A DNA stretch of 64,000 bases from Chloroflexota bacterium. GTDB taxonomy: Bacteria; Chloroflexota; Dehalococcoidia; Bin125. The first letter of the stretch is position 1. Each line of letters opens with the position of its first letter. The notes beneath the pieces were generated by a model, which saw only the letters and a program-made list of their open reading frames with translations, had not been told where the DNA came from and made no database searches. The translations under genes and the position numbers were made by a program. Positions 16,288 through 60,322 of the stretch are shown here, piece after piece. The stretch is taken from the NCBI GenBank assembly GCA_028875225.1, contig JAPPFB010000021.1:87308-151307 (forward strand), given 5' to 3'.

Positions 16288-16382
16288 CCGTCATACCCGC
16301 ACTCCGAGGCGGGTACCTCGCCGAGCGCGGGACGACGGAAGTGAACACTGCGAGATTGCCGAGGCAGGCTCGGCAATGACGG
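16288..16382. repeat. Dispersed palindromic repeat, inverted pair
   Basis: Two copies face each other (16288-16320 and 16351-16382). Both have outer ends CCGTCAT...CTCG. The left stem reads ATACCCGC with GCGGGTA; the right, read in its own orientation, is ATTGCCGAG with CTCGGCAAT, so stem bases have changed in pairs. The right copy contains an in-frame ATG upstream of the MaoC start that should not be used as the gene start. Confidence 0.85.
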
Positions 16383-19760: not shown

Positions 19761-19834
19761 AAGTCGCCCCCGCGAAGGCGGGGGCCCGCAGTGTCTGCCT
19801 CGTCGCCGCACCCCCGCCTTCGCGGGGGCGACTT
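19761..19834. repeat. Perfect 24-bp inverted repeat of palindromic arms
   Basis: Left arm 19761-19784 and right arm 19811-19834 are exact reverse complements, and each arm is itself a hairpin (CCCCCGC gaa GCGGGGG type). They differ in sequence from the CGTCAT...ATCTCG family but share the paired architecture. A third hairpin (CCCGCA...TGCGGG) lies at 19928-19943. A transcription-terminating role after purA is possible but there is no T tract. Confidence 0.85.
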
Positions 19835-19973
19835 CTCCATAGGGGCCTCTGCGCACCTCTTCACAGCGAGAGGGATGCGGACGAAGACACTGCATTCTGA
19901 TCCCCTCTCCCTCCAGGAGAGACCTGTCCCGCACTTGATGCGGGAGCTAGGGTGAAGGCTTCGGAGCCGGCCA

Positions 19974-31918: not shown

Positions 31919-32219
31919 ATCGCGCCTCTTCTCTGTCGTAGTTGCCGTCAGGGTAGGCGTTTCGCATTCACCGCAACCGACGCCACTCTCCACTCCCCAC
32001 CATTCCCAACTCCACCGCCGTCACTCCCAGCCCCAACCCCGTCATTCCCAGCTCTGCTGGGAATCTCGCCCCCTTTTGAGCATCGCAACAAACGAGATTC
32101 CCAGCAGAGCTGGGAATGACGGAATCAAGGCTCAAAGTCAAGGTAGAGGTGCACTCACTTTTGGCGTCACTCCGTACACGCTGGCAACCAGGACAGATCG
32201 CATCTCCGTCGCGCACCCC
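31919..32219. other. 301-bp gene-free region
   Basis: Lies between the propeller gene start and the 3' end of the carboxylase gene. It includes an irregular C-rich tract (31981-32040) with partial repeats, then the inverted palindrome pair described separately. No plausible gene. A promoter for the propeller gene should be on the minus strand but no strong match is visible. Confidence 0.65.
32039..32122. repeat. Dispersed palindromic repeat, perfect inverted pair
   Basis: Copies 32039-32068 and 32093-32122 are exact 30-bp reverse complements. Each has CCGTCATT...ATCTCG ends around a CCCAGC...GCTGGG hairpin. A spacer of 24 bp separates them, so the pair can form either two small hairpins or one large cruciform. 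Confidence 0.9.
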
Positions 32220-41679: not shown

Positions 41680-42024
41680 ATGGCCGTGCTGATGACCCAT
41701 CCGATCATGATCGTCCGGGCGCGTCTCGATCCGACGGTATTGCAGGAGTTCGAGGACTGGCATCGCCAGACGCACTTGCCGCACGTGCTCGAGATTCCGG
41801 GCATCGTCTCGGCCTTCCGCGTGCGTGGTTCCGACCCGATCGCGGGCGCGCATCTGATGGGTTACACGTTCGAGGACGAATCAGTTGTCCAGGCGGCCCT
41901 CTCCTCGGAAGAAGCCCAGGTCGCGCGCAGAGACTGGGACCACTGGGCTGACCAGGTGTACGAACTGTCGGTTGAGATCTACGCGCCGCTCGCGCCGTTG
42001 CCGATTTTTCAGCACCATAACTAG
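41680..42024 (+). CDS. EthD/ABM-like small dimeric alpha-beta barrel protein (tentative)
   Basis: About 110 residues. The start pattern PIMIVRARLDPTVLQEFEDWH followed by LPHVLEIPGIVSAFRVRG is the layout of DUF4286/EthD-type ferredoxin-like dimers, many of them involved in small-molecule oxidation or degradation. Start at the ATG giving MAVLMTHP or the ATG four codons later; neither has a clear binding site. Lies divergent from rpsO across about 220 bp. Function unknown. Confidence 0.6.
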   Translation: MAVLMTHPIMIVRARLDPTVLQEFEDWHRQTHLPHVLEIPGIVSAFRVRGSDPIAGAHLMGYTFEDESVVQAALSSEEAQVARRDWDHWADQVYELSVEIYAPLAPLPIFQHHN

Positions 42025-42080
42025 GGTCGTGGCGCCTCGGCTACACACGCGCCCTGTTTCGTCGCGTCTGAACAACATTC

Positions 42081-42508
42081 CGTCATACCCGCGCTTGCCG
42101 CGGGTATCTCGCAGTGAACTGCTTGGCGATCCAGCGCTCGCAATGCCGCCTCACGCCAGATCCGGATAGAGGTCGCACCACTCAGGGTTGAACACTTCGA
42201 TCAAGCCTCGCCGTCGCGCCTTGCTCCAGCGCTTGATCTGCTTTTCGCGCTCGATTGCCTCAATCATGGTGTCGTGCGGCTCCATCCAGACCAACTTGTC
42301 GATCTGGTAGCGCCTGGTGAACTCCGAGCCCTCGCCGCGTTTGTGCTGCCACACCCGGCGGGCCAAGTCGTTGGTGACACCCGTGTAGATCGCGCCATGG
42401 CGTCGGCTTGCCAGGATGTAGACGCATGGCTGTCGAGGCATGCCCGAGAGAGTATCGGTCGCGAGTGCGCGTCGCTACGAGATACCCGCGGCAAGCGCGG
42501 GTATGACG
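42081..42508. mobile_element. GIY-YIG gene enclosed by perfect 31-bp inverted palindromes
   Basis: Left copy 42081-42111 and right copy 42478-42508 of the dispersed repeat are exact 31-bp reverse complements (CGTCATACCC...GTATCTCG). They sit 39 and 36 bp outside the ends of the enclosed GIY-YIG gene, giving a 428-bp unit with almost nothing else in it. No target-site duplication could be confirmed by eye. The architecture resembles a miniature element with its own nuclease, parallel to REP-RAYT pairs, but mobility itself is inference. Confidence 0.5.
42151..42441 (-). CDS. GIY-YIG domain nuclease-like protein
   Basis: 96-residue single-domain protein. The GIY-YIG fold marks are present: VYILAS then AIYTGVTNDLARRVWQHKRG (catalytic Tyr and Arg), LVWMEPH, and the metal-site Glu within EAIEREKQIKRWSK, ending in LIEVFNPEWCDL. 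Small stand-alone members like UPF0213/YhbQ are often of unclear role. This one is enclosed on both sides by identical inverted copies of the intergenic repeat, suggesting that it acts on or depends on that repeat. Confidence 0.88.
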   Translation of the reverse strand: MPRQPCVYILASRRHGAIYTGVTNDLARRVWQHKRGEGSEFTRRYQIDKLVWMEPHDTMIEAIEREKQIKRWSKARRRGLIEVFNPEWCDLYPDLA

Positions 42509-42547
42509 ATTCTCTTTTGCGATAACAACGAGATTGGCGACGAGCCC

Positions 42548-42889
42548 TCAGAGATCCAGCGCGACCTCGTCCTTGATCGCTGTTTTGCCTTCGGGGAGGG
42601 TGAAGAAGTTGCAGAAGCAGGTGCCCTCGAAATCGACCAGGCCGTTGAGGACCGGTTCGCAGACGCAGATGGTGTCGTCGTTGTTGGCCGGCTGGCAGGG
42701 GCAGTAGAACTTGCCGAAGCGCATTCGCATGTTGACGAAGTCTTCGATCGTCTGGTCGGCGTTCATCAGGATGTAGCCGCGCTCCTCGCAGAACTTGTCC
42801 GCGAGTTCGGTCATCTCGGCGCGGTACTGTTCTCGCAGCGCGCGCTCTTCCTCTTCCGGCAGGTCAGTCAGGCGTTCGAACTCGGCCAT
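42548..42889 (-). CDS. Ferredoxin-thioredoxin reductase catalytic-chain-like Fe-S protein
   Basis: 113 residues. FYCPCQPANNDDTICVC followed by GTCFCNFF gives the CxC ... CxC ... CxC spacing of FTR beta chains, which bind a [4Fe-4S] cluster beside an active-site disulfide. The His of the final CHC motif, which stabilises the intermediate in FTR, is Phe here. The FTR alpha subunit is not nearby. Most likely a redox Fe-S protein; transfer of electrons to a thioredoxin-type partner is inference. ATG chosen with GAGG seven bases upstream. Confidence 0.75.
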   Translation of the reverse strand: MAEFERLTDLPEEEERALREQYRAEMTELADKFCEERGYILMNADQTIEDFVNMRMRFGKFYCPCQPANNDDTICVCEPVLNGLVDFEGTCFCNFFTLPEGKTAIKDEVALDL

Positions 42890-56721: not shown

Positions 56722-56752
56722 CGTCATTCCCGCGCTTGACGCGAGAATCTCG
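56722..56752 (+). repeat. Dispersed palindromic repeat, single copy
   Basis: CGTCATTCCCGCG...CGCGAGAATCTCG. Family ends intact, stem imperfect by a base. Between ychF and xdhC. Confidence 0.8.
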
Positions 56753-59986: not shown

Positions 59987-60322
59987 GGAGCCCCACGTAA
60001 GGATTCGCCGCCGGACCCCGTCCCCGCAAGAGGCTGGCGCGTACACCTCCTACCCTCGATCTCGTCATTCCCGCCTGTGGCGGGAATCTCGTTCCTACCA
60101 CTCAAGAACGCCGAGGGGAGCGAGATTCCAGGCAGAGCCAGGAATGACGGAATCCAGAAGGACGCCCAGGTCGCCCGACGGAAGGGACCACGCCGTTGCG
60201 AATGCACCGCCACGGGTTCGGGAGGGTTCTCCCCGTCAAAGGGGATGATCGGTGCGTCGCCCCCGACGCAGTCCTTGCCGCCTACGCCTCCGGTCCTGTC
60301 GACAGAAACATATGCTGAGGAC
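59987..60322. other. 336-bp gene-free region
   Basis: Between the HAD gene and the site-2 protease. Contains an inverted pair of the dispersed palindrome (60063-60150), then GC-rich sequence; no gene seen. A binding site GAGG precedes the protease ATG. No strong promoter match. Confidence 0.6.
60063..60150. repeat. Dispersed palindromic repeat, inverted pair
   Basis: Left copy 60063-60091 (CGTCATTCCCGC...GCGGGAATCTCG) and right copy 60121-60150 (CGAGATTCC...GGAATGACGG) face each other. Outer ends match; inner stems differ (CCCGCC/GGCGGG versus CCTGGC/GCCAGG) so each copy has its own hairpin. Spacer about 29 bp. Confidence 0.85.

Follow-up and report, generated by a model that had tools for sequence, protein, structure and literature searches.

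A GIY-YIG nuclease gene framed by inverted CGTC-tagged palindromes in a Chloroflexota genome: a putative minimal REP-nuclease-REP element

Few short repeats of bacterial genomes are as common as CGTC-tagged palindromes. The CGTC-tagged REP superfamily includes the dRS3 repeats of Neisseria and RPE-4/6 of Rickettsia, and the survey that described it reported no dedicated enzyme (Di Nocera 2013, PMC3733652). Chloroflexota are not among the taxa for which it records CGTC repeats (PMC3733652). REPs with a different tag, GTAG, are the repeats of RAYTs, which are HUH (Y1) enzymes. GIY-YIG enzymes, the family considered here, are known as homing nucleases (PMC1564403).

In the window, by which we mean the whole 64,000-nucleotide stretch of Chloroflexota DNA that was analyzed, a small GIY-YIG gene stands between two tagged palindromes:

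42024..42545, no strand: stretch without counterpart in 13 congeners, enclosing the whole REP-gene-REP unit (flank alignment)
42081..42111, + strand: left palindrome with CGTC tag, outward head, same sequence as the right copy
42151..42441, - strand: GIY-YIG nuclease gene, 96 aa (Pfam PF01541, active site, AlphaFold model)
42478..42508, - strand: right CGTC-tagged palindrome, head outward, exact inverted copy of the left

The sequence-only reading of this DNA had described perfect inverted 31-bp repeats at 39 and 36 bp from a gene of 96 residues, and both coordinates and identity proved exact. Each palindrome is built of CGTC, a 9-bp stem (ATACCCGCG/CGCGGGTAT), a 5-nt loop and CTCG, the stem-loop reading ATACCCGCG-CTTGC-CGCGGGTAT. 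The right REP (42478-42508) has a subterminal GCAC at position 40-43 that matches the dispersed elements described below. With up to three mismatches, the 23-bp REP core occurs in the window only at 42081-42111 and 42478-42508, with none expected from shuffles. The flanks of the 13 congeners can be aligned until about 42022-42024, and the alignment resumes at about 42537-42564.

The same reading had counted at least nine related copies dispersed between genes. We find nine, of several stem types, as four pairs and one single copy; ORFs that overlap some of them are mechanical calls, and the REPs are counted as intergenic:

16289..16381, no strand: gene-free outward-facing REP pair, 93 bp (CGTCATACCCGC...GCAATGACG)
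19762..19835, no strand: two copies of another tagged palindrome (AGTCGCCCCCGC type) as an outward-facing pair without a gene
32040..32121, no strand: gene-free outward-facing REP pair, 82 bp, arms identical
56722..56752, + strand: single REP copy
60063..60150, no strand: gene-free outward-facing REP pair, 88 bp, partner imperfect

The four gene-free pairs measure 74-93 bp, and many REPs of this genome are likewise outward-facing pairs that bound gene-free elements of about 80-150 bp. Genome-wide sequence searches returned 120 CGTCATNCCCGC sites versus 1 for the reversed control, and 72 copies of the window's exact REP type (up to two mismatches) versus 0 in the control. NCBIfam and Rfam gave no match. 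Behind the hairpin, the dispersed copies carry CTCGC, eight variable bases and GCACGG. The CTCGC-N8-GCAC block of the 93-148-bp gene-free pairs is also present at three of the four gene-element ends (those of the window unit and of its 84% homologue in genome G002), the distance to GCAC being equal in three; gene-bearing and gene-free units therefore have more than the palindrome in common. CGTC is invariant in 34 aligned REP copies, which had been selected by CGTC. A gene framed by REPs, accompanied by gene-free REP pairs with the same ends, is also the arrangement of RAYTs and REPINs. Single symmetric palindromes that bear a CGTC tag at each end were seen at three loci (L123 at about 362-392, G000:C22:67061-67091; L271; L272) and are possibly collapsed REP pairs or targets. 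A separate near-identical repeat of about 45-50 bp (L033, 8910-8960 region, query 311-360) occurs in many places and in every congener examined.

The 96-residue protein matches Pfam GIY-YIG (PF01541) with an E-value of 1.5e-16 and 60.9 bits against a cut-off of 22.6. Residues Y8, Y19, G21, R29, E66 and N85 are invariant in 38 relatives and correspond to the GIY-YIG active site, with the catalytic Tyr, Tyr, Arg, Glu and Asn of the nuclease superfamily all in place. GIY-YIG is the sole domain detected, and the Y1/HUH transposase domain that marks RAYTs was not found in the protein. Its AlphaFold model has a pLDDT of 93. The nearest solved folds are UPF0213 proteins, the branched-DNA nuclease Slx1 and the UvrC nuclease domain; Foldseek ranks 1zg2 first (TM about 0.53), followed by Slx1 and UvrC, and the profile similarity to 1zg2 has an E-value of 4e-10. 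Given that these folds include a branched-DNA nuclease, this protein could plausibly make structure-specific cuts at an extruded hairpin. GIY-YIG enzymes hydrolyze DNA without a covalent intermediate. They are not known to join strands, nor is any of them known to mobilize DNA in the manner proposed here.

The geometry, and the analogy with RAYTs and REPINs drawn from it in the sequence-only reading, extend far beyond this genome. Among protein relatives from bacterial genomes of many phyla, 75 had enough flanking sequence, and 38 of these genes have an exact inverted repeat of at least 15 bp common to both 250-bp flanks, versus 5 of 873 other ORFs at the same loci (p about 2e-41) and 3 of 268 ORFs of up to 200 aa. 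A second sample, drawn from the genome's own class, gave an inverted repeat for 18 of 36 GIY-YIG genes and for none of 24 copies of a conserved neighboring control gene. Under a strict tagged-hairpin definition, outward heads stand on both sides in 19 of 80 cases versus 4 of 825 for other ORFs, and outward hairpins outnumber inward ones on either side. Stems vary by taxon (GTCATTCCCGC, GTCATCCCGG, GTCACCCCGG and GTCATTGCGAGG, among others), and left and right stems are the same in 29 of 39 pairs (shuffled mean 2.3, maximum 9). Many relatives have CCA-like REP tails; the tail in this genome is CTCG. The expectation that gene copies are always bordered by repeat pairs did not hold, a recognizable pair being present at about half of them under strict criteria. 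UvrC loci, used as a further control, showed no shared inverted repeat of at least 15 bp, but their ORF borders are partial and we do not rely on them. Same-type dispersed copies in the 20-kb loci stand at 2.2 versus 0.36 per 100 kb away from home, a weak signal (18 copies, 10 of 47 loci).

The REP-gene-REP layout also occurs in annotated public replicons of Neisseria gonorrhoeae, Sphingobium, Shinella and Rhizobium (Rhizobiaceae), the gene copy of N. gonorrhoeae standing among repeats of the dRS3 (CGTC-1) type. Two N. gonorrhoeae matches (L265) are 2.17-Mb records listed as plasmids, evidently chromosomes. Three distant GIY-YIG genes (L158, L159 and L160, in G049, G060 and G038) lie directly behind tRNA genes (Ile, Asn and Asn) and have the 3' part of the tRNA repeated at their other side; these units look like minimal elements targeting tRNA ends.

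Genomes carry one to several GIY-YIG genes, each with its own REP type (four in G002, three in G009). The second gene of the present genome (L002, 1380-1850), 53% identical to the first, is framed by a different palindrome, CCGTCCCCGCCTCNGAGCGGGGACC, and has a syntenic orthologue in G010. REP stem type tracks the protein tree, with 41 changes versus 59.5 when shuffled, and does so within the genus as well (9 versus 12.7); in both cases none of 1000 shuffles reached the observed value. This agreement is partly joint inheritance of linked sequence, because the orthologue pairs of the genus are syntenic, and we rejected their matching REP types as separate proof that recognition takes place. Cognate recognition is better tested by genome-wide counts. 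Across 16 genomes, cognate REPs are more numerous than non-cognate ones (p 5e-4). The REP type that frames the G007 gene was counted 181 times in G007 itself and 12 times in G008, with no copy in the 14 other genomes, and the type of the G001 and G009 genes occurs only in G001, G009 and G013. The window type, with its 72 copies here, has 13 in G002, home of the 84% homologue with identical REPs. It also occurs in G009, G010, G013 and G017, where a gene flanked by it was not found; four genomes of this kind have, in falling order, 185, 36, 25 and 21 copies. A fourth REP type is commoner in genomes without a detected cognate gene than in those with one. Nothing clear of this GIY-YIG family was found in G013, G025 and G040, which have many REPs. 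The sequence-only reading had allowed that repeats and gene might fail to co-occur across taxa, and this applies in part: several genomes are REP-rich with no detectable cognate gene. REPs can evidently outlast, or be missing, their gene, and draft assemblies may have lost repeat-framed genes.

The orthologous gap between the two convergent genes lacks the nuclease gene in all 13 congeners. It holds mostly 0-43 bp, with REPs of other types in four congeners and a different, repeat-like filler in one; the slot of G010 is filled by a symmetric single palindrome. Empty sites in relatives, which the sequence-only reading had proposed to look for, are thus present, and the site is an REP insertion slot; that it is empty of the gene in relatives and used by other REPs excludes a fixed syntenic location with no link to repeats. 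The closest homologue of the whole unit, in G002 (84% protein identity, identical REPs), occupies an unrelated, non-syntenic site, at which none of 11 other genomes, the present one among them, has the gene. Most other orthologues within the genus stand at syntenic, conserved sites, indicating that the gene itself moves seldom. One intergenic site in G009 and G014 (L136 and L192) holds different GIY-YIG elements, 47% identical and with different palindromes, which suggests an insertion hot spot. In the Sphingobium fnrL-fixJ gap, strain TomTYG46 has REP-gene-REP, a lone symmetric palindrome, CGTCACCCCGGGTCAAGCCCGGGGTGACG, stands in TomTYG64 and TomTYG74 (its arms deviate by one base in TomTYG74), and two further strains have no palindrome. 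Judged from these sequences, the gene-less palindrome may be a target or a deletion scar, the latter because inverted palindromes contain direct repeats. The nearest congener lacks the REP pairs at the sites orthologous to L117, L028, L005 and L016. Diverged intergenic flanks hide any target or duplication there, and none of the available relatives showed an exact empty site that would define a target or a duplication. A related gene occurs some 20 times in G027, as copies or fragments (L193-L196, L198, L203-L205) that often lie at contig ends and are mostly interrupted by in-frame stops; it is carried together with a REP-like pair in a larger multi-copy unit whose flanks are conserved. We rejected this multi-copy gene as proof of activity, since most copies have stops and ride in the larger repeated unit.

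The pairing recurs across phyla, the palindromes match and face outward, gene-free elements have the same ends, and presence and absence alternate at orthologous sites. We consider it highly likely that the association of nuclease and palindrome is specific, real and functional. The probable explanation, in our view, is a minimal REP-nuclease-REP selfish element, in which a GIY-YIG endonuclease is paired with its own CGTC-tagged palindrome type. The small, probably Slx1/UPF0213-like enzyme would recognize the hairpin that its cognate REP forms when extruded or single-stranded, and would nick or cut it; another REP-bounded segment would then serve as the template for repair of the break or be joined to it. 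Short REP pairs would spread in many copies by this route and the nuclease gene occasionally; the gene would be mostly vertically inherited, at one to few copies per genome, and the palindromes would form a large population, as with RAYTs and REPINs. On balance we think it more likely than not that the enzyme drives the spread of the palindromes. Since GIY-YIG enzymes hydrolyze DNA and are, to our knowledge, not strand joiners, homing-like copying by break and repair is more likely than true transposition or strand transfer.

Homing could also act alone, the symmetric CGTC...GACG palindrome being the target, cut at its centre, with the gene copied between the arms and the REPs spreading otherwise. 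The symmetric palindrome of TomTYG64 and TomTYG74 where TomTYG46 has REP-gene-REP, the similar palindrome in the orthologous slot of G010 and the existence of GIY-YIG homing nucleases (PMC1564403) are consistent with this. A gene-less palindrome is, however, equally explained by deletion between direct repeats within two inverted palindromes, many congeners have an empty site with no palindrome, and the gene-free elements that share the subterminal block would be left unexplained, so that homing alone appears unlikely.

More doubtful still is a role in hairpin processing, for the host or selfish, in which the enzyme would trim palindromes or remove them and be kept near REPs without spreading them. 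The Slx1-like fold, with its structure-specific relatives, and the symmetric collapsed palindromes would suit such a role, yet cognate copies tend to be more, not fewer, where the cognate gene is present, and a host repair gene would be expected at a fixed site in most relatives, whereas this one is absent there in 13 of 13 congeners. It is similarly improbable that an unrelated transposase moves the REPs in trans, with the GIY-YIG gene as cargo trapped between two of them. The same protein family is enclosed across phyla by REPs with differing stems, other ORFs are hardly ever so enclosed (5 of 873), the active-site residues are kept, and CGTC REPs had no associated transposase in the 2013 survey (PMC3733652); all of this argues against cargo, although several genomes do have REPs without the gene, and in G027 the REP-gene-REP rides in a larger multi-copy unit with its frames mostly broken.

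If the REP-nuclease-REP reading is taken more widely, a stand-alone GIY-YIG nuclease, with neither transposase nor recombinase, might propagate tagged palindromes in general and account for the CGTC/GTCAT-type intergenic palindromes across phyla, Neisseria dRS3 included; we put this forward tentatively, as a serious possibility. On the present sequence comparisons, GIY-YIG nucleases are strong candidates for the movers of CGTC palindromes. The survey that defined these repeats had concluded that they have no dedicated enzyme; one nuclease family, whose pairing with them recurs and follows the tree, is now a concrete candidate, present in hosts that can be cultured, and opens the question to experiment. 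Among open-access papers, none was found that connects GIY-YIG genes with CGTC REPs.

Compared with known systems, the window REPs share with CGTC REPs an unpaired CGTC tag at one end, an 8-9-bp stem opening with AT, a 4-5-nt loop, inverted pairs and many intergenic copies (120 versus 1 in the control). They differ in the tail, which is CCA in most CGTC REPs, not strictly so in the source (PMC3733652), and CTCG in this genome. UPF0213/Slx1-like proteins (1zg2, 1ywl; Slx1) are closest to the enzyme in solved fold and sequence profile, and none of the solved relatives was found described as repeat-linked. GIY-YIG homing endonucleases such as I-TevI and its relatives have in common with it the catalytic domain and, probably, selfish insertion, whereas the present element has no intron, intein or DNA-binding modules and is palindrome-bordered and intergenic. 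MITEs and other TIR elements resemble it in their short gene-free copies carrying the ends of the gene-bearing copy; here, in contrast, the ends are palindromic, the unit contains no DDE transposase, and no target duplication is seen in the diverged flanks. With RAYTs and REPINs the element shares a palindrome-framed gene in single to few copies, many short inverted REP pairs and mostly vertical inheritance, but a RAYT system pairs an HUH (Y1) enzyme with GTAG REPs, and the present element pairs a GIY-YIG nuclease with a CGTC tag. If our reading is correct, two unrelated folds, HUH in RAYTs and GIY-YIG here, would have converged on living with tagged hairpins. The CGTC REPs, apart from the tail, and the RAYT/REPIN-like way of working are already known; the link between GIY-YIG nucleases and CGTC REPs appears to be new.
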